This document shows, one piece after another, positions 10,828 to 63,844 of a DNA stretch of 64,000 nucleotides (the stretch's first letter is position 1; each line of letters starts with the position of its first letter). The translations under genes and the position numbers were made by a program. The notes beneath the pieces were generated by a model that saw nothing but the letters and a program-made list of their open reading frames with translations, ran no database searches and was not told the DNA's origin. Source of the DNA: Capniomyces stellatus (taxonomy: Eukaryota > Kickxellomycota > Harpellomycetes > Harpellales > Legeriomycetaceae); contig LUVW01000023.1 of the NCBI GenBank assembly GCA_001661515.1, positions 498,977 to 562,976 of the forward strand. The letters run 5' to 3'.

Positions 10828-13549
10828 ATGAGTGGGCTAGTAGCTATAAGAGGAAATGTAAATTACAATGAGGAAATTGAGATAATAACAGAGTTTCTGA
10901 GTAAGTTCAGCCAAGTGAGTGGACAGGAAGCAAAGGCGGCGGTTGGAGATGGGGAAGAGTTGGGAGAGTATGAGGAAAGAGGAGCGGGGAAGCTTAAATA
11001 CAAATACATGGATATGGTGGTAAGAGTTGTTTTTGATTGTAAAAGAGGAGAAAGGTAATGCAAAAGAAGTGAAGGATATTATAAAGGAGATAAAGATAAT
11101 AATAAGAGAGGTAAATGAATTGATATAAATGTAGCAAGAGGTGGCAGACAAAACAAGAGAGTGTATAGAGATAAGTCTTGATGATGTGGAGAGGTTTACA
11201 AAGGAGCAGGAAGAAGGGGTGATTGGGTCACAGGTGGGGGAGGGAAGTAGCACAATTGGATACAGCTCACAACAAAGCGGGGGGATGAGTGGGAGTGTGA
11301 GCAGAAGCGGAAAGTCGGCAAGGGGGGGAGAGGGGAGTTCACGGTCAGGGATAGTGGGTAGGATTGAGGAGAACAGTAAGAGGTATATAGAGGTGATTAG
11401 CCAGGCGGTAGACAGGGTGATGCCAGCAGGGAGAAATTCGACGGTGCTGAGCAAAGAGCAGGACAATGTGCTGGAGGTTATTCTTGAGCAGAGGAGGTTG
11501 CGGGACGAGGCAGATATGGATAGGGATAGGGAGGGATCGGGGGGTAATGGGGGGCAAATGGGGGAAAACGAGCAGATGAGGTTTCCAAAAAAGCTTACGC
11601 GAAGATATACAGTGGTGTTAATAGGAAGAAAGAGTACTAAGGCAAAGTCGATTAGGCAGGTGGGGGCAAAGGAGATGGGGAAGTTGGTGAAGATTAGGGG
11701 AATAGTGACGAGAACAACGGAGGTGCGGCCAATAATGTCGGTGGCAGCGTACTTGTGCGACAGGTGCGGGAGCGAGGTGTTCCAGGAGGTGCTGGGGAGG
11801 CAATTTCTGCCGCTTGACACGTGTTTGTCGGAGCAGTGCAAGAAGCAGAGGAGCAAGGGGAAGCTGCACCGGCAGACGAGAGGAAGCAAGATGATGAAGT
11901 TCCAGGAGGTGAAGATGCAGGAACTGTCGGACCAAGTATCGATGGGAGACATTCCAAGATCGCTGAGCATCCACTGCTACGAGACACTGACGCGACAGGC
12001 AAAGCCCGGAGACATCATTGAGGTGACAGGAGTGTTTCTGCCAAGTCCATTTACGGGGTGGCGGGCGTACAAGGCGGGGCTACTGGCAGACGTTCTGGTG
12101 GAGGCATTCAACATCGAGATGGACAAGAAGCAGTACAAGGACGTTAAGGAGGACGAAAAGAACAATGCAGAGATAAGACGCGAGATTGGGCGGCTGATAG
12201 GAAGCGAGGATGTGGTTGGCCAGCTCGCGTCATCAATCGCGCCAGAAATATACGGACACGACGACGTGAAGAGAGCGCTGTTGCTGCAGCTGGTGGGCGC
12301 GCCAAAGATAACAACGAGCGACGGAATGAAGATCCGCGGCGACATTCACCTGTGTCTGATGGGAGACCCCGGAGTGGCCAAGTCTCAACTGCTCCGGTTC
12401 GTGTCCAAGATAGCGCCAAGGGGCGTGTACACAACAGGCCGCGGATCGTCGGGTGTAGGACTGACGGCCAGCGTTGTGCGAGACAGTCTGACAGGCGAGC
12501 TGGTGCTGGAGGGAGGCGCGTTGGTGCTGGCAGACAACGGCGTTTGCTGCATCGACGAGTTTGACAAGATGGAGGAGGCTGACAGAACCGCGATTCACGA
12601 GGCTATGGAGCAGCAGACAATTTCTATTGCCAAGGCTGGAATCACCACCACTCTCAACTCCCGGTCCAGCGTCCTGGCCGCAGCCAATCCAAGCAGGTCG
12701 CGTTACAACCCCCGCCTCACCCCCGAGGAAAACATCAACCTTCCTGCCGCTCTACTTTCGCGTTTCGACGTGCTTTTCCTTATTCTCGACGTTCCAGACC
12801 ACAATAACGACTTGCTATTGGCTAGACACGTGACTCACGTCCACATGACTGGAATCCATCCAACCAATCAAAACGCGTCAAATCTCATCTCCCCCAAACT
12901 GCTCACCAGTTTCATCGCCAACGCGCGTTCCTTCACCCCAACTCTCGACTCTGAAGTTGCAGAGTACGTTGTTGAGTCATATGTCACAAAGAGAATGGAG
13001 TACAAGCTGCACCTCGACCGCTCAAGAAGCAGAGCAATGAACTCGAGAAACACATTTTCAGGCTCCAGTTCCGCCCCTGATTCTTCTGCCGCCGCCTCCA
13101 ACTCTGTGGTAGGTTCTGTTACCCCAAGATCTCTGCTCGGTATCCTGAGACTTGCCCAGGCTCACGCAAGAGTCAGGGGGTCCAATATTGTTGCCAAGCT
13201 TGACGTTGACGAGGCAAGCAGACTCATGTACGCTGCCCAAGTCACCCTCGACCTGCAGCTCGCAAACTCTCTCCACTCCAAGTCCACTAATTCTGCTGGT
13301 GCCCACTCCTCTGCCTCCAACTCTGACTACATCAGCCACATCTTTATGAACCTCACTGATATGCTGAAAACTCGCAAAAACATCCATCATTCCATCAACA
13401 ATGCCCTTGTTTACAACCTAGCCCTCAAGTCCATAGTCAATCTCGGCTACTCTGAGTCTCAATTTACCAACTGCCTCAACTACTATGACCAGCTCGGTCT
13501 TGTTCAGGTCAACTCTTCAAGATCCAGAATTGTCTTTGTATCCAACTAA
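10828..13549 (+). CDS. MCM7: DNA replication licensing helicase subunit MCM7
   Basis: Two exons, 10828-11019 and 11135-13549, joined in phase; 868 aa. The join gives YMDMV-QEVADKTRECIEISLDDV, matching the conserved N-terminal MCM7 segment, which fixes both splice sites. Features in order: a Ser/Gly-rich linker; a C4 zinc finger (CDRCG then C-x4-C, about residue 272); the MCM OB fold (LVKIRGIVTRTTEV); Walker A GDPGVAKSQ (about residue 474); Walker B CIDEFDK (about 536); and the arginine-finger block SRFDVLF. MCM7 is one of six subunits of the hetero-hexameric replicative helicase loaded at origins in the nucleus. A Ser/Ala-rich insertion lies after the AAA+ core. The first two thirds of the gene use G/A-ending codons and the last third C/T-ending codons, a sharp change within one gene. 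Confidence 0.97.
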
Positions 13550-17857: not shown

Positions 17858-20227
17858 ATGATTTATAGAATAGTGCTAGTATCGTTTTTTGTAACGATGT
17901 TTTCAACCACATACTTTTTAATAGTGGGGCTAAACAGGAGAGGGGTTGTGAGTGAGAATGAGGGACTTTACAGCAGTGGGATTTATGAGAGACTAAACGA
18001 GATAAGGGAGAAGTTCCACAGAAACAACCGGAAGAGAAAATATCAGAGTAGTAGGGGGGGAGGGCAGGAAATAGGAGACGAAAAGTATGGGGATTATAGG
18101 TATAGGGGGGTAGAAGGCAGAATTGAGCAGACATACTATTATATGGCAACAGCAAAGCTAGATAGAGAGGCTGGACTGAGACCAAGAGTTGATAGAGATA
18201 GTGGGAGTTACCTGAGAAAAATATTTGATTCAAAGGTGTTAGTGGTAGTAAAAAAAGCTGTTAGCAGTGGGTATGAAAAGTTGAGGGGACTTTCAGGCAG
18301 TTGTGGGGGGTATACGGGTAGAAATAGTTATGGGAGAAAAGAGAAAAAGAAGGATATGAAGGAAAAGAAAAAGGAGTTTTTAGAAATGTCTACAGATGAA
18401 TGGATAGAGTATCAGTACGAATATGCATCAGAGAAAATAAAGAAGAATCTGGGGGTGGAGGGGTCGTCAAAGGGAGCGATCTGTGCGTCGCCTTCAAAGC
18501 GAAACCCAGACTATTTTTACCATTGGGTGCGGGACTCGGCGTTGACAGTAAAGTATCTGGTTACAAAGCTAGAGGGAAAAGAAAAAGAAGGAAAAGAAAA
18601 AGAAAAAGAAGGAAAAGATAAAAATGACACAATTTACTTTTCCAAGATTAAAGATTATTTAGAGTTTTCAAACAAACTGCTAGACAACATTCATCCTGTA
18701 GGGGGAATTGGGGAGCCAAAGTACCATATGAATGGGAGTTTGTTTACTGGGGACTGGGGGCGGCCTCAGAACGATGGTCCAGCATTAAGGGCAATTGGAA
18801 ACATTGAGTTTGTTTACTACTTGATGGACAAGGGACTGGACTATTCACGAATTCTGTGCGACAATACAAATTTGAGCCAAGAGTTTCAGTTGAAGTTTAA
18901 CAGTCAAACCAGACAAATGAAACTATCAAATATTCCACTAAATCCTTCAAACTGTATTCTGAACTCTGACCTGAAATACCTTGAAAATAACCTCAACTCG
19001 TCTTCGTTTGAGATTTGGGAAGAAGTTAATGGCTCTCATTTCTACACTTCCTTAGTTACTTGTAAGGCTTTTGAAATGGCTGCCCAGCTTTCGTTGAGGC
19101 TAAACAATACCGCTCAATACCTGCATTACTCCAATCTTTTACGCAATTCTGTTCATTCTCTTGATGCCTTTTGGAACTCCAATTCTCAGTTTCTTTCTTC
19201 CACTGTCAATTGGAAAGGCGGTCTATCTGACAAACCTTTTTTTCTAGACTCTCAAGTTGTATTGGCCCTCATTCACACATGGGATTCTTCTACTAGCTTT
19301 TATCCCCCAAACATTATTGGTAGAGTAGGTTTTCTTTTCTTTTCTTTTCTTTTCTTTTCTTTTCTTTTCTTTTCTTTTCTTTCCCCATATCCTATTTATA
19401 TTACCATTATCATCCTTATAATTATTGCTATTATTATTGCTGTTCTTATTGTCTTTTAGGTTTTGAAAACTACCATTGAATTGTTCAAGGTTTTCACCCG
19501 CGAATACCACATAAACAGCTATGGAATCCCCGGTATTGCAATGGTAATTTACCCTAAAATAATCATCTATTATTGTTATTTTAACCTATTTGCCAACAAA
19601 TTATTTAAATTTCCTCACTCTTGTTTTTTTTTCTTTCTTTCCGTCTTGTAGGGAAGGTATCCAAATGATAGGTACAATGGGTATAACTCTGAACATAAAG
19701 GAAACCCCTGGCCTCTAGTCACGTGTGGAATCGCCGAAATGTACTACAAAATCATCATTGCCTCAAAAACATCTAAATCCATCTACTTTGACCACAACAT
19801 GAACCTATTTTTATCTCATTCTGCCTCGCTTATTGCCAATCGAATCCAGAAAAAGTATCCTCTTGCTTCATCCCTTTACAATGACAATAACAAAGACAAC
19901 CACAGTTTGTCCAACTTTACTGTTGCCAGTCTAAACTCCTTAATCTCCAATCTAAACTCAACCTACCCAACCAATCCATCTTCTAATCCCCAAATCATAC
20001 CCCATTCTAACCCCATTTACAATGACATTCTATTGCTGCTTTATGCCTCCGCTGAAGAATTTGTAAATAGAGTAAGGTTTCACTCTTCTTTTGATGGCTT
20101 CATGGCCGAGCAATGGGATAGAAACTCTGGTTTTCACACCGGCGCCCCTGATCTCACTTGGAGCTACACCGCATTTTCCACTATGGTACACCAAAGAACC
20201 TCTGCTAAAAAGCTTCTTTGTCTATAA
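17858..20227 (+). CDS. Glycoside hydrolase family 15 glucoamylase, N-terminally membrane-anchored
   Basis: Three exons, 17858-19324, 19460-19543 and 19652-20227, in phase; 708 aa. Glucoamylases release glucose from the non-reducing ends of starch or glycogen. GH15 hallmarks: NPDYFYHWVRDSALTVKYL near residue 215; VGGIGEPKYHMNG with the general acid Glu286; GDWGRPQNDGPALRA; GNPWPLVTCGIAE; and AEQWDRNSG with the general base Glu670 before DLTWSYTAF. Residues 3-27 are a hydrophobic segment (signal peptide or type II anchor), followed by a basic stem of about 160 residues. No starch-binding domain is visible. A Lys/Glu/Gly insertion (about residues 233-255) interrupts the catalytic domain and comes from an AAAGAAGG-type repeat. 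Intron 1 holds a TTTTC pentamer array. It could serve secreted or vacuolar polysaccharide use. Confidence 0.95.
19329..19382 (+). repeat. (TTTTC)n array in glucoamylase intron 1
   Basis: About ten pentamers start five bases after the GTAGGT donor, forming an extended pyrimidine tract in the 135-nt intron. Confidence 0.93.
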
Positions 20228-41108: not shown

Positions 41109-42866
41109 ATGAATGAAACTGTGTACGGTAGGAGCTGTTTTTTGCTGAATTTTGTGACAAAGTTCAGGTCAAATTTGACAAGAACGGAGTCGCCGTTGAA
41201 GGGAGAGCGTTCAAATATGCTGGTTGCTGTTTCGGGAGGACCGAGTTCAATTGCGTTGTTGAATCTAGCTAGTCATTTTCAGCTCCCAGAGTTTAGCAAC
41301 AGATCACAGCAGAAGTTTGTTGAAATGTTTGTAGGCCACATTGACGAGAGCTCGTTGTTTCCGGTAGGTGTTTGGTTGATGGGTAGAGATAGTTTTTGTA
41401 TTGATGGACTTGCAAGTGTTTTTATTGAAGCTTTGTTTTTGTGCTGATTAAATGGGGGGAGAAGGAGAAGGTGAAGGAGTGGTGGTGGTGGTGGTGGTGT
41501 TTAGAGCTGAATTGAAGGTAGAAACCCGTTGGTATGTATGTATTTTAGGAAACAAAACGGGACAAGATAAAGGAGATTTTCGGCAAGTATAACGTAAAAG
41601 TGTATACAAGAAGGCTGGAGGATGTTTTTGATACGAAATATTATAAAGAGTTTGTTTGTACTAAAATGATGGAAAGCCAAGGAGCAAACTGTAAGTTGAA
41701 AGAAATTAGGATAGAAATAGTGGTAATTGCGATGGTGGCAGTTGCAATGGCGGTATTTGTAATGGTGGAGGTGTGAATAATGATTAAATGGCTATTGAAA
41801 ATAGTGAGGAAGTCGAGATTTGCCAAAGTAGACAATAAAGACTTGAAAACACCAGTTGAAATGCTTAAAGAGCTATTTTCGAATTTGAAAACGGCAACTA
41901 GTCGCGAAGATATGCTGGAGAGAATAAAAAATCATTTGTTGCTAGAAATAGCAAGAGAAGCAAAGTAAGTGATTTGAAGGAGAGAAAAGAGAGTTTATAT
42001 GGGGTTTATTGGTGAATCAAGGCGGGTAGTTTAACGATTGGTTTACAATGGGATGAATAGCTGCCACATTCTTGTTGTTGGAGATACAGCAACACGAATA
42101 GCGTTTAAATCGATACTTTTGACTTCAGAGGGCCGAGGATTTTCGCTTCCCTATGACATTGGGGCCGAGTCGAGACTGGAGGATGGTAAATTCCAAAATG
42201 AGTATATATGAAATGAGTTGGTATTGGTATTGGTATTGGTATTGGCATTGGCATAGGTGCTGGTTCATTGATAGAGAACCCCAGCTTGACTAGTGTCAAA
42301 TTATACTCAAGGAAATGCGGATAGCTAAATGGTCTATTTTCTGGCTGAAATATGGCGTGTTTTATCTAGATGTCTGGGTTTTGAGGCCGTTGAGAAACAG
42401 CCTATCAAAAGAAATTGCATTTTACAACCGCGTGCAAAATCTGGAAACCGTTTGGGTTCCCTCGTTTTCGTCCAAGGCAACAGGATCCAAGTTTTCGCTG
42501 GGCCACCTGACTGAATCGTTTTTAAACGGACTGAATGTAGAGTACACGGCAACGACATCTACTGTTGCAAGCACTGTTGCAAAGCTCAAAATAAACACCG
42601 ACTCCGTGTCTGGCACCAGGTGTCTGGTATGCCGCGTCTTTGTGGCCGACAATGCCTATCACTGGAAATCCAAAATGACTGTTGGGCTTGACAGCTGTTC
42701 TTCCGCTCTTAAACCCACGGATTCGGCTATCCCAACTTCTGCGTCTGGCTGCTGCGAAAATACCGAGCCTTTGATTGACTTGCAAGGCAAACTGTGCTAC
42801 AGCTGCCTCACTCTTGTTGAAGAGGCCAAAACCGGGTCTATATTCCCTGGTTTTGTTTGCCTATAA
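41109..42866 (+). CDS. CTU2: Cytoplasmic tRNA 2-thiolation protein 2
   Basis: Five exons, 41109-41363, 41549-41690, 41805-41964, 42061-42185 and 42325-42866; in phase, 407 aa. The N-terminal nucleotide-binding block LVAVSGGPSSIALLNL is followed by LVVGDTATRIAFK and DVWVLRPLRNSLSKEIAFYN, all conserved in Ncs2/Ctu2. The C-terminus has CLVC and CYSCL cysteine pairs. With Ncs6/Ctu1 it thiolates U34 of Lys/Glu/Gln tRNAs using sulfur relayed by Urm1, in the cytosol. The P-loop-like motif has Pro in place of the catalytic motif of the Ctu1 partner, as expected of a Ctu2 subunit. Intron 4 contains a GGTATT hexamer array. The last exon is markedly C-richer than the earlier ones. Confidence 0.92.
42218..42262 (+). 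repeat. (GGTATT)n hexamer array within CTU2 intron 4
   Basis: About seven units, grading into GGCATT, inside the 139-nt intron. Confidence 0.88.
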
Positions 42867-43414
42867 CCAACCCTTCTCCTACTATTTACTTCCTTTACTT
42901 GCTTATTTTTTTTTTCTTATTCTAGGCTAGTTATACTGAATCAAATCGATTTAACTAGTCTAGCATAGTTACATTATTTCAGTAGTATAGTTACTTTTTT
43001 TTTATCCTTTTTTTTTTTACTTGCCACCTTTATTTTAACTTTGAATGCCTTGCAAAAAAAAAAGCTTAAATAGAATTAAATGGCGCTATTTTATTCGCCC
43101 AAATGATTCCTTCTTGTTTTTTTTTTGTTATTTATCTGTTTTAGTCTTTGAGTCCAAACTTGTTTTCCTGCTTGCCCAACTATTCTCTTTGGATCCTTAT
43201 CTCCAATTCCAGTTTTCCTGACTTGAAATAGAACCTCGACTATTTTGCTTTTCACTCTTTTCTATACTTTATTAAATTTTGGCATTCCGAGTTCAAATAT
43301 TTGCCTCTCTATCTCTATTACTTTTTTATTTTTATAAAGATTCCGCGCAGTATTCTTTGTGCTTAGTTATAACTACCAATTCCTGGCGCTAGGTAAACGC
43401 AGTGTAAAATAATC
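42867..43414. other. Intergenic, T-rich, COQ7 promoter
   Basis: T-rich 3' flank of CTU2 followed by the presumed COQ7 promoter. No gene or element seen. Confidence 0.6.
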
Positions 43415-44382
43415 ATGTCTTTGTCGAGATTTGTGTTCAAATCAACCCTTTGTAAAGCATCCGCCAGTCTGGTATCAACACCAATCCAAACACCCGTCCA
43501 CAACATCTCGAAAATAGGATTAAACCGTAATCATGCTTTAATAAAGCTTGGTGCTGGGTTTTCTACTTGCCCAAAAAACCCAAACCTTCGCAACAACGAG
43601 CAACAAAACAGTAAACAACCAATCGACCTTTCAAATCTATCTGAAAACGAACGCGAAATGATCGATAGATTTATTCGAGTTGACCAAGCTGGCGAAACCG
43701 CCGCTGTTTGGATATACAGAGGCCAAAAGGCCGTTTTAGGAAAAAACAAACGACTCCGGGATCTCTTACAGGTAACCCCCCCTTTTTTTTTAACTCGTGT
43801 CGGCTATATAAACTTTTAAGCTGGGGCTTAAAGTAGATATTGCCAGTGTACATTATCATTCATCACTGTTTGAATCCAATTCATTTTTCAACTCCTGTAA
43901 AAAATAATAATAACCAACTAAATTTTCAATTGCTTTCTTTTCAATTATTTTTGATTCTCCGCTTGTACTTTAAACAGCACATGAAAGAGCAAGAAGATGT
44001 CCATCTTGATTCTTTTAACAAAAAAATTGTCCAGTACAACGCCAGACCAACCATTCTTCAGCCCATATCCGCAATCGGTGGCTTCATTCTCGGTGCTACA
44101 ACCGCTCTTATGGGCGAAAGAACTGCCATGGCCTGCACTGAAGCTGTTGAAACTGAAATCGGAAACCATTATAACAACCAGCTACGCGAACTGCTTCCAA
44201 TTGCCAACAACCCTGATATTGCTGACTTGATGCAAGACATCAAGCTGTTCCGTGACCAGGAACTTGAACATTTAGACACTGCTGTTGATAACGGCGCCCA
44301 CAACTCCATTCTATACGACTGCGTCAATTCTGTTATTAGACGTGGATGCAAAACGGCAATTTGGTTGTGCGAGCGTGTTTAA
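43415..44382 (+). CDS. COQ7: 5-demethoxyubiquinone hydroxylase, mitochondrial
   Basis: Two exons, 43415-43771 and 43978-44382, in phase; 253 aa. Residues 1-55 form a mitochondrial presequence (MSLSRFVFKSTLCKASASL). The di-iron carboxylate ligands are all present: Glu in DQAGETAAVW (residue about 94), E and H in the HMKEQEDVHL segment, E in EAVETEIGNHYNNQL with its His, and E/H in RDQELEHLD. Coq7 performs the penultimate hydroxylation of ubiquinone synthesis on the matrix face of the inner membrane, within the CoQ synthome. The exon junction falls immediately before HMKEQE, which fixes the splice site. Same strand as CTU2, 0.5 kb apart. Confidence 0.97.
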
Positions 44383-45794
44383 CTCTTCACACACTCTCTC
44401 TCCTTCTCTTGTTTGACTTTTTTTTTATCTCTTGTCTAGTTCTTCTTTATTTTGTGTTTAATGCTTGTTTTTTTTAAAAAAAAAAGGCAATCCCATTTCT
44501 ACTGCCACTATTTTTTCACTTTGTTAGTTTTAATGCTATAGATCCAAATTTTATCCCCCAAATACATTTCTTAAACCCATGTAAGTTTAATTTGCCTTCA
44601 TTCTAAGCTCATAATTCTGTTTTTGTTTTCTTTCAGTCAAAATTTTGTTCCAAATATCTTTGTAACACACTAAATCCTGAATCTGATCCGTTTTTGCTAT
44701 TCTTGTGTTTATTATTTGTTATTTTTTTAAAAAAGCCAATATTATACCTCTTTTTTGGTGCTAGTTTCAACGCCGGTTCAAGATCGGATCTTCATCTTTT
44801 ACTTTTATCGGCTCTGTTTGTATGCAGTTTATACTAATTATTGGAAGGTCAAAGGGTTGGTTTAAACTCAAGTCATGATTTCGACAACTATCGCAATCAA
44901 TTTAAAAATCAAAGTACCTTTCTGATTCTAAATCGGGTGAATTCTATTGGACCACAAAGTTAAGCCACACTATTCAAACGCTTTATGTCAACGTCAGCCT
45001 TAGGAAGAGTTTCCAATACTTTAACATCGCCAACACCAACCTAACAACACCAACCAATACAGACTCGAATATTCCAAGCTAGAAAGAGCGCTTTAAATCA
45101 AGGCACAAACTCGATTAGATCAAAAAATAAACATCATTGCAAAACGATTTATAAAGCGGTTTATATTAGCTAAAACAGAAATACAAATAGCCTCAATCTC
45201 ACATTCCTATAATTTCGAATATTATCAAATTTACAATAGACCACTTTGAAAGGATAATTTGTCTTGCATTGGTTGATATGATATATACCAAGAAATGCTC
45301 GACTGGCGAATCAAATTCCTTACAGAAAGAGAACGGTGTCTTTAAGCTCCAGCTCCCACACTGCTAAGCCGCACCCTTTGCATTCAAACTCTTTACAAGC
45401 CAACTTTTGCATCTTTTGTGCCACCCCAAAGTAACTTATAAGTTTCATTAAGCGGATACAGCTGGTAATATCGGAAATGGAACCATATACACTTTTACAA
45501 CTTCTATACCATCAACCTTGTAGATTACATGTTGGTATCTTGGACTTTTGTGCACATAAAAACAAGTATAAATAGCCATATGTTTTCCTAAATAATTACA
45601 CTCATCAACAGTTTATAAAGCATTCAACTCAAATAACGATTCTAGCTATTTAAACACACACACACAGACAAGACAATAACAGCATTATAACAATATTTAC
45701 ATACCTGGCCAGCTAATTCCAGCAAACTACAAACTTTAACTGTTATACACATTTTAACTAAAACAAACCAAAAACACCAACCAAATTAACAAAA
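44383..45794. other. Intergenic and promoter of the repeat-peptide precursor
   Basis: 1.4 kb. The left part is T-rich. From about 45000 to the ATG the + strand becomes A/C-rich, ending with a CACACA run (45655-45670) and an ACCAAACAAAC-type leader, as in efficiently translated fungal mRNAs. A TATA box lies at 45567-45575. No gene seen. Confidence 0.6.
45567..45575 (+). promoter_or_regulatory. TATA box of the Kex2-type repeat-peptide gene
   Basis: TATAAATAG, a strong consensus match, about 220 bp upstream of the ATG at 45795. Confidence 0.65.
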
Positions 45795-46454
45795 ATGAGA
45801 GTATCTTCAATCTTTGTCCTTGCAACCGCCTTCTTGAGCTATGCAATCGCAGTTCCAACAACCGCCGCAGTTGAGGACGTAACCACCGACACAAGCTTTG
45901 ATCCTCAAAGCCATATCTTGCTAGAGTCAGCCGATGGCTCACCAGTTGAACTATCGCCTGATGACTTGCACCTGGTTGATGTGCTGGTTAGCCACCACCT
46001 CTTGACCAAGTACCTTGACGAGATCTTTAACATCAATGGGGATAACTCAACCGAGGGCCAAGCTCCCGAACAGAAGCAGTTGTCCAAGCGCGCCAACTTG
46101 ATCATCAAACACAAGGGAATCTCTGGTGCCCAACTCTTGGCTTACTTTTTGAAGCGTGACGCTAACGAACAAATTCTGAGCAAGCGCGCCAACCTTATCA
46201 TTAAACACAAGGGAATATCCGGTGCCCAGCTTTTGGCCTACTTTTTGAAGCGCGAGGACGGCGGTGAAATCAGTGAACAAGAGTTCTCCAAACGCGCCAA
46301 CTTGATCATCAAACACAAAGGAATTTCTGGTGCCCAACTCTTGGCCTACTTTTTGAAGCGCGAGTACAGCGGGAATGAATTGAACAAGCGCGCCAACTTG
46401 ATCATTAAACACAGAGGAATTTCCGGTGCCCAGCTTTTGGCTTATTTCCTCTAA
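45795..46454 (+). CDS. Secreted Kex2-processed repeat-peptide precursor (pheromone-like), 219 aa
   Basis: Architecture as in yeast alpha-factor precursors. Residues 1-19 are a signal peptide (MRVSSIFVLATAFLSYAIA). Residues 20-99 are an acidic pro-region with one N-glycosylation sequon (NST) and a terminal SKR. Then come four copies of ANLIIKHKGISGAQLLAYFL (bases 46092-46151, 46188-46247, 46296-46355, 46392-46451; the last has Arg for the second Lys). Each copy is preceded by KR and the first three are followed by KR, with short acidic spacers between. The fourth copy ends exactly at the stop codon, which defines the mature C-terminus. There is no CaaX box, so it is not an a-factor type. Predicted fate: ER/Golgi, Kex2 cleavage, carboxypeptidase trimming, secretion of a 20-residue amphipathic cationic peptide. 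Role unknown: pheromone, hydrophobic surface (repellent-type) peptide or membrane-active peptide. I recognise no homologue. Confidence 0.9.
   Translation: MRVSSIFVLATAFLSYAIAVPTTAAVEDVTTDTSFDPQSHILLESADGSPVELSPDDLHLVDVLVSHHLLTKYLDEIFNINGDNSTEGQAPEQKQLSKRANLIIKHKGISGAQLLAYFLKRDANEQILSKRANLIIKHKGISGAQLLAYFLKREDGGEISEQEFSKRANLIIKHKGISGAQLLAYFLKREYSGNELNKRANLIIKHRGISGAQLLAYFL
46092..46451 (+). repeat. Four in-frame 60-bp peptide repeats with variable acidic spacers
   Basis: Repeat cores are 60 bp; spacers including the flanking KR codons are 36, 48 and 36 bp. DNA copies differ at up to nine of 20 codons, almost all synonymous. Confidence 0.95.
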
Positions 46455-47597: not shown

Positions 47598-48746
47598 ATG
47601 GTTGAAGCAAGAGGCTTCAATAGACTTACCGAATGTATATTATCAAAGATATTTGTGCTGGCGCAAAACACCAGCTTCTCGTTGGTGAACAAGCGAGTGT
47701 ATTATGTTTCGCAAGAGTTTTCTACAAAGAAGAGGTATATCATAAGGTGTGTGAATAGTTCAAGGGTTGGGAATTTCAGCCTGGGCGATATCTTCAAGGA
47801 GATACTTTCGAGGCATCCAAGAATAGCAAATAATGAAGCCCTAATCACCGAAGTGTTGTATGGGCTGAAAAAAATCAAGTATGTAGATGTTTTGGAGCTG
47901 GCGTTTGAGTATAAATGGAGAGGTGTCATATCAAAGCTGTTTGACATGTTTGTGGTTTTAAATGGCGAGAAAACATCGGTGGTTTATGTTGGAACAGGCC
48001 TGGCAGAGCATAAAGTGATGGACATCGATGTTGAGCATGTTGTAGATGATAAAAGCGAATATTGCGACCTAACTGATATTGAACATGGCAATGTTTACGT
48101 CCGCCCTTTATACAGCTTGATAAATAATTGGGATACAATAATGGACAGCCTGTCTGAAATAAGTGGCGAAATTATATTAGACGAGTTAGTCAGAATAAAC
48201 AAGAACCGAACCGTTATTTCTAGCAACAAGCAGAGTGGTGAGGCGGATCATAAAAACGAGGAATGTAACGTCAGTCTGTCAAGCAACAAGATATACGGCG
48301 TGTATATAATAATCGTCATATCAAAAGTGTGCAGGAGTGCTGATTTAGCACATCTCTCAGCATTGCTATCTATCAGATATAGCTTTGAGCTTGTTCCCAA
48401 CGATCTTGGCAGCTTCATTATAAAGTCGTTGTATGACGCCATTTTGAGGGATCTACTGGGTGTAATGTCTCGCAGCACCGGCTCAGTAGCCGAGTCCAAC
48501 GCTGACCATGATGCTGATAAAGGATCTGCTGACTTGGTGTTTGCTGTTATTTGTTATTATGTCATTGAGACCAATAACCAGGTATACCTGGGGTACATTA
48601 TAAACAACGAGTCTAGTGAAGCCAAGCTACAGCTACTTTACGACATTTCGAATTTTCTCAACAAAGACAACATCTGCACAGATATTTTACTAAAATCCAG
48701 GCAGTCAAAGGGGTGCCCAACAGAGCTGCTTGAAATAGCAAGCTAG
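47598..48746 (+). CDS. F-box-like protein, 382 aa
   Basis: A single exon. The N-terminal 50 residues (CILSKIFVLAQNTSFSLVNKRVYYVSQ) follow the F-box pattern of a Leu/Pro-lacking first helix, I-L-x-x-I-F, then S-L-V-N-K-R. F-box proteins bind Skp1 and present substrates to SCF ubiquitin ligases. The remaining 330 residues are predicted mostly helical, with no LRR or WD repeats that I can see; segments such as VLELAFEYKWRGVISKLFDMF suggest a helical repeat, possibly ankyrin-like and degenerate. Many early-diverging fungi carry expanded families of this type; that link is inference. Confidence 0.6.
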   Translation: MVEARGFNRLTECILSKIFVLAQNTSFSLVNKRVYYVSQEFSTKKRYIIRCVNSSRVGNFSLGDIFKEILSRHPRIANNEALITEVLYGLKKIKYVDVLELAFEYKWRGVISKLFDMFVVLNGEKTSVVYVGTGLAEHKVMDIDVEHVVDDKSEYCDLTDIEHGNVYVRPLYSLINNWDTIMDSLSEISGEIILDELVRINKNRTVISSNKQSGEADHKNEECNVSLSSNKIYGVYIIIVISKVCRSADLAHLSALLSIRYSFELVPNDLGSFIIKSLYDAILRDLLGVMSRSTGSVAESNADHDADKGSADLVFAVICYYVIETNNQVYLGYIINNESSEAKLQLLYDISNFLNKDNICTDILLKSRQSKGCPTELLEIAS

Positions 48747-49957: not shown

Positions 49958-52900
49958 ATGTCTAAAGAGAATCTAGAGCAGGTTTACAAGGATTATAGGA
50001 TGGGATTGTTGGATCTAACATTCAACAGCAAGCCGATAATTACAAACCTCACAATAATAGCACAAGAGCAACACCAGTTTGCACCAGCCATTCTGAGAGC
50101 GATTGAAGAGCATCTTTTAGAGGTTAGAATTGAGTTAATTAAATATAATAATGATAATGATGATAATTATAACAATGATGACAGTGATTAATAAGAATTT
50201 TGTGTTGTTTAAACTAGATCCATCCCAAGATGAAGCTACCTAGCTTTTATTTACTGGATTCGATTTGTAAAAACGTTGGTGGCGTATACGTAAGTCTAGC
50301 CAGCAAGCGAATCAGAAAGATATTCTATAGTACTTTTACCAAAGTAGACAAGACGATTCAGGGTAGCATGGAGCGTGTTTTGGCAACGTGGCGGAACTGT
50401 GTCAGAGGCAAACCGCTGTTTCACGTAGAAATTTTAGATAAGATCAACCAAGATATAAGTACGTTCAAGAGCGGGACAATCCAAGTGAAAAAGGCAGCAC
50501 AGCCAAGGCCAGAAGTAAATGTAAGTTAAAAGAAGTTTCGTTTAAATATAAAAATGACACAACTGCAAATGCAGGCATATATATGCACATGTACACTTAT
50601 CTATTTATAGCCGTTTAATTATTATCGTAAGATATGCTGTGTTGAACAATCATTGTATCATTTTATTGTAAAAATACTGTTTGAATATATAAAAAAAACA
50701 TCATTGTTAAAAAGTGAAAAAAAAACTCAATTATACATGGAAAGTATAAAAAAAGACTCGAAGCTTGAATAAAGTTATACAACCAGAAGGAGAAAAAAAA
50801 GGAATTTAGAATTGCCAAGTGTGTTTAAAAGGCATTGTGCTATTATTGCGTTGTATCTGTCATGTGGTGCAACGATGGTTGTCTAGCAAGATAAGTTGTA
50901 CATTCATTTTCACCCCAATCCCAATTTCAATTCCAGTTCCAACAACAACTCGAATCTTTTGATTTCAGAGCTTGAGATGCAGTCTGGAGATTGTGCTGAT
51001 AGTTAAAATAGGCTTGGTGAGAAACAAAATATAATTATTGTGGCAGATAAGGCACTTTGAGCATCAAGTAGGGGTTCTGGTGGCGGATATTGCGACAATA
51101 TAATGGCAACTGTTGGAATTTTAAATTCTGGGCATTGTTGCGTTATTGTTGGCTTCAGATTGGTGTTTAAGTCGAAAGAAAAAGTCGGTGATTTATAGTC
51201 ATGAGAGCTTCTATTTCAACATTTGACACGGCGCGACAATGATCTATAGAATCCAGCTTTAGCTTAATTAGTGCATTTCTGCCTGCCACTATATTTTATA
51301 TTTTGTGATTGTCAACTCCTTTTAACTTTCAAACATAGCACTGTTTTTACCATGCAATCAGGATGCTGGCACAAACTAAGGCCACTGGACGGGATGAATA
51401 AAGGTTGGCAATGTGGAGAGCGTTGCTAACTCATTGCAACCAGAGCATACATACAAATAAGTATAGATATAGGTATTTATGTTTGCTCTGGGGAGGGGGG
51501 GGGTGTTTATATTTCAACTTAGACCCACCAAAGTGAGAGCGGTGCATACAAGGACCCAAGAGACAATTTCGCACAAATATATATTTGTAATTGTACTTTT
51601 TGTTTTGATTTAAAACACTTTTATGCATTCCGAGAAACCTAGTGAAAATACAATTAACCACAAAGGCAGCTATATGGCCATACATTAGGGTGCAATATAT
51701 GTTGCCCGAGTTGGCGGATAGTTTATGTATAAACACGTATATATTTAATGACAGGTTGCTAGTACAGTGTGGTTTAAACTTGGCCATGAGTGGGCGAGCG
51801 GACAAAGACAAGTTTTTTAGGGAGTTTAAATGATAAGTTTGTACGTATTTAATATGTGAATATATTTGGGTGGAATATTACTTTAATTAGGGCACAATGG
51901 GAGGCGAACCTCATGAAATAGTACAGCAAGTAAACAATTTGCTAATCAAGAAGCAAATTCAAAGATTGAAGTCGCCTAAAGATACAGAATTGATTGAATC
52001 TATAGCAGCGTTACAAAAGGTAAGTGTGGTAGCAGTATGCGTACATTAGGTTCCGTGTAGTTGACAACAACAGTGTTGTTGGAGTGTACTTAATGAATGC
52101 GGTGTTTTTTTCTTGTTATTTGTTTTTTTTTTTTGCAGATTTGACACCTGCTTGATATTGTTTGAATTTGTTTATTCTTTTTCTTTTCAATACCTTTTCT
52201 TTATAAAAAAAAGTTGGTTGATAAATGATGGTTGATAAATGAAAGCAAGATTTATCAAATGATTTAAAATGAAAAAGTGAAAAAGTGAAAAGAAAAAAGT
52301 TAAAGTGAAAAGAAGGAAAAAGGGAAAAGAAAAAAAGTGAAAAGGAAAAAGGGAAAAGGAAAAAAGGGAAAGGAAAAAGGTGGGGGGAACAGTAAAGTAA
52401 ATATATGTAATGTTGTATGAAATAAATAGATGCAGAGCGAAATAAAGTCGGGGAAATTATCAGATAAAGATCAAGATATGTATAGAAAAGCATTACTGAA
52501 GCTAGAAGGGGGAGGGGTTAGTGGATCGACAAATGAAGAAATGGGGAGTATAAAAGCAGAGAGTGGGTTAGCAGGAGGGGCAGAGGCAGCAGCTACTGGT
52601 GTGCAAAGGGGAGGTGGTGTAGGCACGGATAGCAGAGCCAAAGAGAATAGATTTGAGCCAAGTAATAATGTTGATGGTAACCGTAGTAGAGGAAATACCA
52701 ATGTCAATATCAATAGCAATAACAAAAACAGTAGTAGTCATAATGATAAGTTTGTTAGCAGTAGTAGTAGTAGAAATAGTAATAGTGATTATAATAAAAG
52801 CAACAGCGTTAATAATAACAAAAGCGGTAAATATGAATTGGGCAGTCACGGAGTTATGAATAAGCCACGGTTTTTGAAGGGAAATGACAACAAGGTGTTT

Positions 52901-54607
52901 GACAGCACCAAAACGCAAAGAAAGGGACACGGGGTTGATCAAAGCAGCGGTGCAAACAGAAACACAGGAGGCTATTCCAGCAGACATGGAAATCCGAATC
53001 CGCAGCACCAAAGCAGCTACATGGGAGGAGATAAAAGCAGTAGATATGGATATGAGCGAAATGAATACGAGTATGGGAAAGTTGAAGATTACTCGAACAG
53101 TGCGAACCAATTAAACAATGGAGGCAATAACTTCAACAACGAAGGGTACATGAACAACATGATGGATCCGGGTAGAATGGCAAACAGCCAATTTAGCCAA
53201 ATGAACACAAACAACAGGAATATGAATACGCAAATGAATACGCAAATGAATACGCAAATGAATATGGGAGTGGGGATGGGAATGGGAATGGGAATGGGAA
53301 TGGGGCAAGCGAGTAGCCAAAGAGTTCCCGAGTCATTAGTGGAGAGTCTTATGGCATCGGGACTACTGGCGAATCTTAGCAATTTGGCACCACAAATACT
53401 GGGAAGCAGTGCAAGTCCCAGTAATATAGTAGGGAGCACAGCAGCAGTGAACAGTTTTGCAAGTCCTCTAGTGGAAGCAGGTAAAGCAAACGGGAATGGT
53501 GGAGTCGGCAGAGTCGATTTGGACGATGGTTTTGAGGACGTTCAAGCACCAGAGTTTACAAACGAGAGCTTGAAAACGTAAATAATAAATAATAAATAAT
53601 AAATATTTACTAGTATAAAATAATAATAACTATAAAAAAGTAGTAATATATAAATCAATTAATTGATTAATTAATTCGGCGTTGTGGGTGCTAAAAATAG
53701 GGTTAGGGACAATAGCTACTGCAGGCTGTACAAAAAGTACGAGACATTTTGTAGCCAATGTGGGTGGAGAAGCAAGGAATCAAACAAGGCGGATAAAAAA
53801 CCGCTGATGAGGGCACACTTGGATTGGCATTTCAGACACAACAGGAGACTCAAGGACAATGTAAAGAGAAAGCGGTCAAGGGGGTGGTTTGTTACTGAGG
53901 AGGAGTGGAGCATGAATGAGGAGGATAGAGATGCTTTGGCTGCGGGTGCAGAGGGGCCAGGATTAGGATTAGGGTATAACAACGAGGACATGATATCGCC
54001 TTTTGTTGAGTTTGCTGGCAAGGGCGGATATAGTGCAGACCACAATGGCAAGCCAAGAAAACAGGGTGGCCGAGACAGTAATTCAGGTGGAAGTGGAGCT
54101 GGTGATGGAAGCTTAGGCGGAGGCGGTGGTGATGCTTTGAGCGAGAGGAAGAGGCTGATGGAAATGCGAGTTGTTGTTCCAAATGACTACCAAGGAGAAA
54201 CGAGCTGTCCGATATGCAAGGAGGCGATTGAGACCTTTTGGTGTGATGGAGATGAGGAGTGGAACTACCTGAATGCGATAATAGATGCAGGTGTGGTTTA
54301 CCATGCCACGTGTCACTCTGACCTTAAAAAGAAATCCATTGGTGGTGGCAGTGCGTTAGGGTTTTCGCCAAACAGTTCTGGGACATTGGGGTTGCCGCCT
54401 GGGCTTGGACTTGGGCTTGGACTTGGACTTGATCTTGGCGGTAGCAATAAGAGAAAAGCGACCAGTGATTCGCATTTAGGTGGCGTTGGTGAAAAAGGAA
54501 ATGCCGATGAGGATTTACTTGATGCTGACGTCAAAAGCAGTGTCAAAAGCTCAAGCGATTTGGATTTACCACATTTAAAGAAACTTCATTTAGATTTTGC
54601 TCACTAG
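49958..54607 (+). CDS. PCF11: mRNA 3'-end processing and transcription termination factor Pcf11
   Basis: Five exons: 49958-50122, 50218-50520, 51891-52019, 52430-53577 and 53701-54607; in phase, 883 aa. Exons 1-2 encode the CTD-interacting domain, which binds Ser2-phosphorylated RNA polymerase II: YRMGLLDLTFNSKPIITNLT, AILRAIEEHLLE, KLPSFYLLDSICKNVGGVY. Exons 3 and 4 continue with the conserved IKKQIQ / IKSGKLSDKDQ helices. The middle is Asn/Ser/Gly-rich, with MNTQ and MGMG repeats. Exon 5 carries two zinc fingers: FCSQCGWRS ... HLDWHFRHNRRL ... RGWFVTEEEW, and SCPICKEAIETFWCDGDEEW ... YHATCH, flanking the Clp1-binding region. Pcf11 is a core subunit of cleavage factor IA. Intron 2 is about 1.37 kb, ten times longer than other introns here. 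Confidence 0.93.
53221..53306 (+). repeat. In-frame 12-bp and 6-bp repeats in PCF11
   Basis: Four ATGAATACGCAA units (MNTQ) followed by GGGAAT hexamers (GMGMGM). They encode a low-complexity Met-rich linker. Confidence 0.9.
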
Positions 54608-55058: not shown

Positions 55059-57097
55059 TCAAAACTTGTACTCGGAGTTTTTGTTTCGTTGTCTTTTCTT
55101 TGCTTGTTGCTGAACGTGCTCGTTAACCATGTCGCTTAGGTCTTCGCCAGTAGGATTGGATGAGCTGGAGATTCTTTCAAGTTCAGCAAGTTTCTTTTGT
55201 TCCTCATACTTTTCGAGCAGCATTTCTTCATCAAGACTGCCGAGTTCACTGGGGTCGAGACTGACCTCGATAGCTTCATCGCCGTGTCTCTTTTTCCGTT
55301 TAGTGGCAGTAGTAGTAGTGGTGGCAGTGGCAGTAGTAGTGGATGTTTTAGTGGTGGCGGATAGATCGTATACGTGCTGTGAGGCCATAATGGTGTTTGC
55401 GGATAGTTCAGTGACTTTGATTTGTTTCTGGGGCAAGACCGTGTATAGTTGTTTAGGTACGTTGTCTTTTCTAAGCTGGATGAGCTCTGGGGTTTCCAGG
55501 CCAGACGCCACACTGGCAATTCCGCTTGGTGTAGCGAGTCCTCTGCCTAGGTGATCAGACTCATCGGCGTCTTGGTCCATTGCAGACTTTTCACCGCCTT
55601 CTTCCTCATCTTCCTCCTCATCTTCCTCCTCCTCCTCTTCTTCTTCTTCATCCTCGTATTCGGACTCAGAGTTGACTTCGCCCCATAAGCTGACTGGGCC
55701 TATGTCGAGGTCCTCAGCTAGCGGGTCGCCACCAGGGCCAGAGTAGTCGCCTTCAGCGAGGCCAAACACGTTTCCGTAAAGCGGACGTCCAAACTCGTCG
55801 ACTGGTGGTCTTCCCCAACCACCTGGGTGGTACCCCCACTGGGCTCCCGCAGGAATAGGCGCACTCAGGCCTGGAATCAGCATGTCTGGGTAGGAAGGTG
55901 GGGGGCCAAACCGCTGCATGTTTATCAGGTATGGTGGCGGGGCGAGGGCCGGAATTCCCAGAGCCTCCTTCAACTCTTCGGAAATCACACCAGCCTCAAA
56001 GTTCATCTGCTTTTTGGCCTCCAGCTCCTTGCCCTCATAAAACATCTCCCCAAACCCGCTCAGATTGGCTGGCTGCTTTTGGAACCGGAAAAACGCATCG
56101 TGTAGGCGCTGGTAGTCTATCACCAGCTTGTTCATCTTTGGCTGCACCCGTTCCCTCTGCTTGCTCTTGCTCTTCAGCGTGTCCTCCTTCTCCTTCACCG
56201 TTTCCCGCATCTCCGTTATCCCCGTGTCTCTTATAAACTCTGGAAGCTCAAACGCCGCCTTCTCCATTCCTCGCTTGTACTGCAGGTACTTTCGCTTCTG
56301 GCTCCAGTGTCTTGGAATCGGCACTGTGTTTCGGTACCCCTTGATGCTCACCAGCAGAATCGGATCTTGTGACGTCACATCTTCCCATTCTACCACCTCT
56401 GGATTCTTCACCAGCTGCTTCAACTCCGCCACTGTTTTTCTTTGGTTTCTCGCCTGCTTATTTTTAGACAGCCCCGTCTCTCCCTCCCCCTCTTCCCCTT
56501 CCGATTCTGAACCCGACTTCATTTCCTTTTCCATCCCTTTTTCTTTCCCTTCTTTCTCTGTCTCTGTTGTATTCTCCTCCTCATCTTCCTATTTACATTT
56601 ACATTTAAAGTTTATTCTCTTTATTTACTGTATCTATATCATTTATCTCCACATTTATCCTCATACTTGCCTTGATTCCTTTCGAGTTCTTTTCAAATCT
56701 TGTAAATATCTCTTGGAACTCTGCAAACGCTGAATCTTCTGCAAAATCTAGTGTTTCTGCTACATACTCGATCTCTACATTGCTCTTCTTTTTATCCTCC
56801 TATAACCAGTTTTACTACCCTTTTCTTACTTTTTCCTTTTTCTTACTTTTTCCTATCTTTATTTTAACTTTATGTTTTATCCTTTTTTTTTCTTTACTGT
56901 TTCTTTCTTACCTTGTCTTGCTTTTTGCTTTCAGAGGTCTGCACTTGCTTCTTCTTACGTCTTCTATTCTTTTTATATTCCGTCTTGCCCTTCTCGTTTT
57001 TATTTCCATTTACACTCTCCGTCTTGTTACCCCCTATCGTCAAGTTTCCCATCTTTACTTGAACCGATGTTCCGTCTGGAACTACCACCGTACCCAT
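55059..57097 (-). CDS. SF3B2: Splicing factor 3B subunit 2 (Cus1/SAP145)
   Basis: Three exons, 57097-56912, 56799-56667 and 56584-55059, in phase; 614 aa. Strongly conserved core: TVAELKQLVKNPEVVEWEDV, QDPILLVSIKGYRNTVPIPRHW, KRKYLQYKRGMEK, DYQRLHDAFFRFQKQP, YEGKELEAK, GPPPSYPDMLIPGLSAPIP and YHPGGWGRPPVDEFGRPLYG, then a Glu/Asp tract, MASQHVYDLS and the terminal EYKF. It is a component of the U2 snRNP SF3b complex, which stabilises the branch-point interaction. The exon 3 acceptor is the AAG at 56587-56585: the AG four bases upstream would put a stop in frame. Exon 1 is short, basic and weakly conserved. Fits a window with intron-dense genes. Confidence 0.95.
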
Positions 57098-62368: not shown

Positions 62369-63844
62369 ATGAAAGTAGTGTCAATTATTTCTCTAGCCTG
62401 TATGCTGTACACTAGTGCATCCGGCGTTCAGGAAAACATCAATTTGAATGCAATCAAGGCAAGAATCAACCAAGATCGCCTAGGTAATGAACAGCTGAAC
62501 GTACTTCAAGAAGATGGCGAGGAGACAGCCGCAAAAGACAGCTACATTGTAAAAGAGGATGAGGACCATGAAGGTGGTCATGAAGGTGGTCATGGAGGAG
62601 GTCATGGGGGAGGTCATGGAGGAGGTCATGGAGGAGGTCATGGAGGAGGTCATGGAGGAGGTCATGGAGGAGGTCATGGAGGAGGTCATGGAGGAGGTCA
62701 TGGAGGAGGTCATGGGGGTGGCCATGGAGGTGGTAACCACCACAATCATCGCAGATGCACAAAAGTTATTTCCACTGTAACAAGAACTGTTACAAAAGAA
62801 GGCTCAGGGTTCTTTACAAAAAAACCAAAGAATAACTGCAAATGTATAAAACAACAAGGTGGCGTAAGACACGATAGAATGTTTTCAAAGATTGACGTTC
62901 CATCATTGGGAACGTTTGCAACAACAAGCAAGCTAGTCTTTGCGGATATCGATGGGCCATTGAGACAACTGAGTTTAGCTACAAGAAACGGAGACCCCAG
63001 ATTTATGGCGTTGAGTGTTAACGCGGGACAGAATGGGTTGAACTATGGGCCAAGCAGAATTACCGAGTTTTTTGGAATTTTGATAGAAACCATGAAGAAA
63101 CATAACCACGAGTTTACAAAGCAGATTGCAAAAGGGTCGGGAGAGATAGAAAACAGAGATGTGTTGAGAGATAGAGTGATGAAAAACATCAAGAGTTTTG
63201 ATGGAAATGAGAAGGCAATTGCAAGATTTACAGCGGACTTGTTTAAGGGGATGTGGGAGGATCAAAATGCAAAGAACGGATTGGTGGACTTTTTGCAACA
63301 TTCATTGTTAAAGTTGCAAGAGACTTCAAGGCCTACACAGCAAAATCTGAATGAGCTTGCAGCGGCAATTGATAAATTTGAAAAAATGATTGCTGAGGTT
63401 TACGGGTGTCACAAAAACTCAATCCCAACAAACTCGCAAATGACGTTTGGACATATTGTTGCTGGGGCTTTGGGGGGAGATAGAGATAGGCTTAAAATGT
63501 TGGTTGACATTACAGTGTACTTGGCAAACAAGAACAACGTGAGATTCGAAACAGATATGGCCAAGGTGCTGAAGGTGTCAGGAACGTATGTCAACTATGT
63601 GATGTTGGGAGTATACGATACCCACACTATGGCGGCAGGAACATCAGTTTCGTTGACCAATAACATCAATGCGCTTAATGCGTACTTGGCAAAGAACAAA
63701 AAGCTTGTGGAAACTTCGCTTTGCATGTACTCGAAGATGTACAACTTGGGCGATATTGACATCAGCGAGTTTATCCTCAGACTGTTCCCTATTATGTTTG
63801 TGATGATGATTATGTTCTTGCTTCCAATCTGTTGTTGTTGTTAA
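62369..63844 (+). CDS. Secreted protein with His-Gly repeat tract and hydrophobic Cys-rich tail, 491 aa
   Basis: A single exon. Residues 1-19 are a signal peptide (MKVVSIISLACMLYTSASG). Residues 67-122 are fourteen perfect four-residue units (two HEGG, twelve HGGG; bases 62567-62734), followed by NHHNHRR, a potential transition-metal binding segment. The main body (about residues 160-465) is helical, without a family I recognise. The last 22 residues are strongly hydrophobic and end in four cysteines (LRLFPIMFVMMIMFLLPICCCC). This could be a C-terminal membrane anchor with lipidatable cysteines or an atypical GPI signal; no clear omega site is visible. Together these suggest a surface-anchored, metal-binding protein, by inference. 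The repeat is coded by near-identical CATGGAGGAGGT units, so the tract probably expands and contracts. Confidence 0.82.
   Translation: MKVVSIISLACMLYTSASGVQENINLNAIKARINQDRLGNEQLNVLQEDGEETAAKDSYIVKEDEDHEGGHEGGHGGGHGGGHGGGHGGGHGGGHGGGHGGGHGGGHGGGHGGGHGGGHGGGNHHNHRRCTKVISTVTRTVTKEGSGFFTKKPKNNCKCIKQQGGVRHDRMFSKIDVPSLGTFATTSKLVFADIDGPLRQLSLATRNGDPRFMALSVNAGQNGLNYGPSRITEFFGILIETMKKHNHEFTKQIAKGSGEIENRDVLRDRVMKNIKSFDGNEKAIARFTADLFKGMWEDQNAKNGLVDFLQHSLLKLQETSRPTQQNLNELAAAIDKFEKMIAEVYGCHKNSIPTNSQMTFGHIVAGALGGDRDRLKMLVDITVYLANKNNVRFETDMAKVLKVSGTYVNYVMLGVYDTHTMAAGTSVSLTNNINALNAYLAKNKKLVETSLCMYSKMYNLGDIDISEFILRLFPIMFVMMIMFLLPICCCC
62567..62734 (+). repeat. 12-bp in-frame minisatellite, 14 units
   Basis: CATGGAGGAGGT units encoding HGGG. 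The middle units are identical; the first two (GAA for GGA) and the last two (GGGGGT, GGAGGT) vary. Confidence 0.97.

Follow-up and report, generated by a model that had tools for sequence, protein, structure and literature searches.

The locus and its host

The stretch of DNA studied here (hereafter the window: 64,000 nucleotides of contig C16, positions 498,977-562,976; the genome comprises 24,510,316 bases in 59 contigs) carries a gene that can be read as one open frame without an intron and encodes a precursor of 219 residues, in which a predicted signal peptide and an acidic pro-region are followed by four copies of one 20-residue peptide, set off by KR pairs and acidic spacers (Table 1). 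Those of its neighbours that Pfam can name are housekeeping genes; among them, the CID and Pcf11_C matches are taken as a single Pcf11 gene, and the DUF382/PSP frame is one which we take to be SF3B2. A further frame (47598-48746) is without Pfam match, and in the 29 window frames that were scanned no biosynthetic cluster can be made out.

Table 1. The precursor gene and its named neighbours (positions are those of the window)
Feature	Position	Strand	Basis
TATA-like motif TATAAAT, about 220 bases 5' of the ATG, candidate core promoter	45567..45573	+	consensus match only
Precursor ORF, 219 aa + stop	45795..46454	+	
Predicted signal peptide, residues 1-19, cut after AIA (before VP)	45795..45851	+	hydropathy and A-x-A rule
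Acidic pro-region, residues 20-99 (80 aa), first KR (46086-46091) at its end	45852..46091	+	residue count
Single N-glycosylation sequon N84-S-T, in pro-region	46044..46052	+	
Peptide copy 1, ANLIIKHKGISGAQLLAYFL	46092..46151	+	
KR - spacer DANEQILS - KR	46152..46187	+	
Peptide copy 2, identical to copy 1	46188..46247	+	
KR - spacer EDGGEISEQEFS - KR	46248..46295	+	
Peptide copy 3, identical to copy 1	46296..46355	+	
KR - spacer EYSGNELN - KR	46356..46391	+	
Peptide copy 4, K8R variant of copy 1, stop codon immediately after	46392..46451	+	
CTU2 match	42294-42866	+	
COQ7, two pieces	43397-44382	+	
CID match and Pcf11_C match	50218-50529 and 53675-54607	+	
DUF382/PSP frame	55059-56588	-	

Elsewhere in the window, glucoamylase-type GH15 matches lie in two plus-strand frames (17858-20227) that are probably one intron-split gene. 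Two adjoining perfect hexanucleotide arrays (ATGGAA x35.3, then CCTTTA x16) occupy positions 1256-1563, the window having several hexamer arrays, and a frame of 491 residues (62369-63844), without Pfam match at E 0.001, contains CATGGAGGAGGT fourteen times (62567-62734).

Capniomyces stellatus is a gut symbiont of stoneflies. The best match of the window's MCM7 (11285-13549) among those listed is that of Smittium angustum (63%), if one sets aside the fused record P0002. The latter, labelled Brassica cretica, is the top-scoring match and contains MCM7 twice over, as nearly identical stretches in tandem, which may reflect misassembly or contamination; it was omitted from a tree of the window MCM7 and 19 of the 120 listed matches. 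In this tree the window sequence joins five Smittium (Harpellales) with a support of 100/100, on a long branch (0.88), its order relative to S. angustum not being settled. Judged by this gene, the host belongs to the Harpellales, among the early-diverging fungi, and is neither a yeast nor any other ascomycete.

Organisation of the precursor

The N-terminus is hydrophobic (best 12-residue hydropathy mean 2.28, hydropathy being the only measure used) and residue 20 is preceded by A-x-A, which is the rule for cleavage of signal peptides. In the pro-region, 15 D/E stand against 4 K/R. The three spacers are acidic as well; their sequences differ from each other, one also in length, and the copies follow each other at 32 or 36 residues (Tandem Repeats Finder detects 3.6 copies at a period of 96). 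An earlier note on this DNA had described the signal peptide, the acidic pro-region with its sequon, the acidic spacers and the stop codon right after the last copy, and all of them are there; its four units framed by KR are found as such for copies 1-3, which are identical, and not for copy 4, which carries the K8R change and has a KR on its N-terminal side only.

Dibasic pairs number seven in the whole precursor, all are KR, and 7/7 stand at the borders of units. The composition of the protein would lead one to expect 0.65 KR, and one in 100,000 residue shuffles reaches seven, so that the seven border pairs are not due to chance. Kex2 favours a hydrophobic residue at P4, and this position is L or F ahead of 7/7 sites.

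The GC content of the frame (0.486) is high compared with the flanking 300 bases on each side (0.30 and 0.35), that of the window being 37.7%. The antisense strand is also open (46047-46454, minus strand, 135 codons); we consider the plus frame to be the coding one because the pattern of third-position variation (see below) fits it. An upstream ATG (45580) lies just downstream of the TATA-like motif.

Conservation among the four copies

The four copies vary at 14/60 sites, 11 of which are third codon positions (binomial P ~1e-6, a rough figure only, because it takes the sites as independent and the copies as unrelated though they share ancestry), and the codon of residue 8 is the only one whose variation alters the amino acid (K in copies 1-3, R in copy 4). 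Up to 62% of synonymous sites differ between copies, for a peptide that differs by at most one residue. Over the six pairs of copies, dS ranges from 0.25 to 1.34 and dN from 0 to 0.069, the latter exceeding zero even for some identical peptides because the path method counts an amino-acid step in some Leu TTG-CTT changes. The lowest dS (0.25) is that of copies 1 and 3, which may derive from a younger duplication; since the remaining five pairs show dS of 0.77-1.34, the identity of the peptides does not come from recent copying. With so high a synonymous divergence against a change of at most one residue, it is the 20-mer itself that is conserved, and not the spacers, as measured on four copies inside one gene of one species.

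One might object that the product could be a secreted repeat protein left unprocessed, or that the frame is not expressed at all. We consider this very unlikely, as the repeat is conserved at the codon level and all seven KR pairs are exactly placed.

Relatives and class

A word-based search of 5.8 billion proteins produced no homologue of the precursor at E 0.001 among 2148 candidates, and the repeat region had no match at E 10 among the best 8000 candidates by shared words in the same set. The set includes Smittium proteins, and seemingly lacks the host's own (its best sound MCM7 match is at 63%). Both searches depend on a common word of 5 residues and on a comparable length, and might therefore overlook a relative that has diverged or whose copy number is very different. 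Within the host, a 56-residue query run at E up to 10 against the 24,510,316 bases of the 59 contigs matched the gene itself only, and the best PDB sequence match of the precursor had an E-value of 0.68. Finally, four peptide stretches were not found in print in the literature searched. "Undescribed", as the earlier note had it, is therefore a fair word for this precursor as far as these proteins and this literature go.

Several matches to the precursor were rejected as artefacts of the repeat: HI0933_like_1st, which scores 27.6 for a Pfam cut-off of 27 (0.6 bits over) by summing short repeat matches, AAA_lid_BCS1, which is under its Pfam cut-off, and three NCBIfam matches far under theirs. 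A mechanical scan for precursors of this plan over the window together with a further 200 kb of its contig (264 kb in all including 32,539 N, about 1% of the genome; 205 ATG-started ORFs of at least 80 residues, the scan being blind to multi-exon genes) gave two matches, the precursor gene and a frame in L016 (428977-438976 of the contig). This second match was dropped, being a basic frame that overlies another, acidic and repetitive, whose start is signal-like. The underlying reverse-strand frame (about 5,700-7,300 of L016) begins with MLKYIFGALALLSIATTNG and continues as a long acidic SADEET/SAEEET repeat; it probably encodes a secreted acidic repeat protein.

Kex2-processed repeat proteins (KEPs) have been defined by at least three tandem repeats of at least 8 residues between KR, KK, RK or RR, a repeat of at most 100 residues, an ER signal peptide, and cleavage by Kex2 (PMC7329392). 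Here we find four repeats of 20 residues (thus under 100) and seven KR pairs, together with a signal peptide recognised by hydropathy only, and we regard it as very probable, from the sequence, that the gene encodes a KEP. Surveys of such proteins (Le Marquer 2019, PMC6339444; Umemura 2020, PMC7329392) count 185 KEPs in 16 strains of Zoopagomycota (11.56 per strain), and some Zoopagomycota are said to carry as many as the richest Dikarya (PMC6339444). The 2020 survey, which was built on annotated proteins and lists 7878 KEPs, does not name Capniomyces in its main text (PMC7329392). Since KEPs have already been counted in Zoopagomycota whereas our searches gave no match for the present 20-mer, we have here a known kind with a seemingly new member. 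The "new signal class" that the earlier note put forward as possible is not demonstrated by such a plan, which is that of a published class.

The precursors of alpha-factor consist of a signal peptide, a glycosylatable pro-region and tandem copies with KR sites. The present precursor has the same elements, its signal peptide being a predicted one, and the likeness that the earlier note had seen is thus real in terms of architecture. It goes no further in the features tested: MF_alpha and MF_alpha_N are not among the Pfam matches to the precursor, the pro-region or the 20-mer at E up to 10 (the HMMER filters dropping most weak matches), the Ste13-type dipeptides X-A/X-P are absent before 4/4 copies, each of which directly follows a KR (one spacer does start with DA), the acidic spacers have KR on both sides, and the GRAVY of the 20-mer is 0.80, that of the S. 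cerevisiae 13-mer being -0.87. The precursor would, then, work like that of alpha-factor but, by these sequence features, is not one.

Processing genes and predicted maturation

The genome contains one P-domain match (E 2.6e-25), in a frame whose best PDB match is the S. cerevisiae kexin (E 7.1e-149) and in which a membrane span and a tail can be seen by eye. There are seven matches to carboxypeptidase S10, and the frames of three (L006, L007, L008) were inspected. L007, the sole one compared with PDB, is closest to KEX1 (E 3.4e-68) and has, by eye, a C-terminal membrane span and an acidic tail; an N-terminal signal was not seen in the ATG-started frame, and therefore either the gene model is incomplete or this is not a Kex1. 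With these two genes and the layout described above, a Kex2-type precursor, as first proposed in the earlier note, seems a sound reading, the processing itself being putative.

We propose the following course for its maturation. The signal peptide would lead the precursor into the ER, where the pro-region could be glycosylated at N84; the kexin would then cut after the seven KR pairs in the Golgi, and a Kex1-like carboxypeptidase would trim the leftover KR from copies 1-3, copy 4 needing none. Four linear 20-mers (three K8, one R8) would be secreted without further modification, and the acidic spacers and pro-region discarded. Candidalysin of Candida albicans is a linear peptide cut from the KEP Ece1 by Kex2 and Kex1 (PMC9769878); for our 20-mer this is a prediction, and the present precursor differs in holding one peptide in four copies.

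A modified, cyclised product of the dikaritin (RiPP) type would share the KEP plan, and the core does contain one Tyr. However, UstYa/DUF3328 (PF11807) has 0 matches in the genome and 0 in the 29 window frames (prokaryotic control genomes also giving 0, and the search ignoring introns), and the 2020 survey reports DUF3328 in no phylum beyond Ascomycota and Basidiomycota (PMC7329392), which makes this alternative highly improbable in our view.

On the side of reception, G-alpha matches exceed the cut-off at three places in the genome and the more conserved 7TM family PF03006 is detected, whereas STE2 (PF02116), STE3 and MF_alpha_N each have no genome match; these searches ignore introns, and the control genomes, which are prokaryotes, also gave 0 for each of the three. 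Of the processing and receptor genes to which the earlier note had pointed, the kexin and the Kex1-like gene are thus present and Ste2/Ste3-type matches number 0 within those same bounds, so that none of the known peptide-pheromone receptors has come to light.

Possible roles of the peptide

The 20-mer carries a charge of +2 from K/R and has no acidic residue, with hydrophobic ends (NLII and LLAYFL), a polar middle (KHKG) and a single Tyr. Its computed monoisotopic neutral masses are 2169.267 Da (K8 form) and 2197.274 Da (R8 form). On an Aggrescan scale, LLAYF and LAYFL score 1.13, and ANLII reaches 0.74. The helical moment is 0.114, shuffles having an average of 0.205 (79% of 20,000 equal or exceed the peptide), and the moments at 160, 170 and 180 degrees are unremarkable (P 0.76, 0.44 and 0.54), such that the peptide is amphipathic neither as a helix nor as a strand. 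A lytic helix of the classical type is thereby made less likely, and roles as a signal or at a surface are left.

A membrane-active or antimicrobial peptide, directed against gut bacteria or host cells, would indeed be expected to be hydrophobic and positively charged, as this one is, and secretion into a gut shared with other microbes might give it targets. We hold it nonetheless to be unlikely: the helical moment lies under the shuffle mean and nothing stands out at 160-180 degrees, and the earlier note's suggestion of membrane activity is weakened to that extent for an amphipathic helix. Candidalysin differs in just this respect, as it is described as an amphipathic helix (PMC13426942), which by its helical moment the 20-mer is not.

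The hydrophobicity of the peptide, with its two aggregation-prone ends around a polar middle, would fit with a surface-active structural product, in which the 20-mers would come together on the wall or the holdfast, altering wetting or attachment to the lining of the insect gut. Rep1 of Ustilago maydis, to which we liken the precursor by plan and not by sequence, also yields repeated peptides cut by Kex2, the repellents (PMC9769878); they have been termed hydrophobic (PMC5784256) and are reported to form amyloid-like fibrils (PMC9769878). It has also been noted that Harpellales and Basidiobolus come first for one type of cell-adhesion gene among the insect-associated fungi compared (PMC5954228). 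Against this, all but one of the 20 positions are kept, which would seem stricter than a bulk material needs, and four copies per precursor would be few for a structural product. We therefore see it as a possible role, though not a probable one.

We prefer to think that the 20-mer acts outside the cell in a sequence-specific way and is read by a receptor or another defined partner, because its positions have held while the synonymous sites have moved far. In our judgement this has somewhat less than an even chance of being right, and the partner might be the fungus's own hyphae or spores, its neighbours in the gut, or the insect. The report that KEP knockouts in Coprinopsis cinerea, for whose KEPs Pichia was also used, had no detectable phenotype (PMC9769878) is counted against this reading.

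A narrower version, in which the 20-mer is a signal of the Harpellales that guides conjugation, sporulation or synchrony with the host through a receptor unrelated to Ste2/Ste3, seems to us rather unlikely. The special case of a conjugation pheromone, for which Harpellales would have independently adopted a precursor plan like that of alpha-factor, appears more doubtful still. The plan is shared with the alpha-pheromones of ascomycetes, G-alpha genes are present, the pheromones of early-diverging fungi are described as largely unknown except in Mucoromycotina and Blastocladiomycota (PMC6339444), and the mating genetics of Zoopagomycota as not well understood (PMC10386755). But STE2 and STE3 were not matched (by a search with prokaryotic controls that ignores introns), MF_alpha_N is absent from the matches, and the neighbours that Pfam names are housekeeping genes.

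Significance

As a sequence finding alone, this is one more KEP beside the 7878 of the 2020 survey (PMC7329392). The gene nevertheless names one exact molecule, which can be synthesised and for which two masses are predicted, and C. stellatus has already been grown in culture (PMC4974312), so that a direct test of peptide signalling in a fungus of insect guts comes within reach. This is relevant in view of what the literature says of the pheromones of most early-diverging fungi (unknown, PMC6339444) and of mating genetics in Zoopagomycota (poorly understood, PMC10386755). Should the peptide prove to be such a signal of the Harpellales, read by a receptor unrelated to Ste2/Ste3, the alpha-factor-like plan would have been put to use independently, and the literature searched would hold no earlier description of a peptide signal from Kickxellomycotina.
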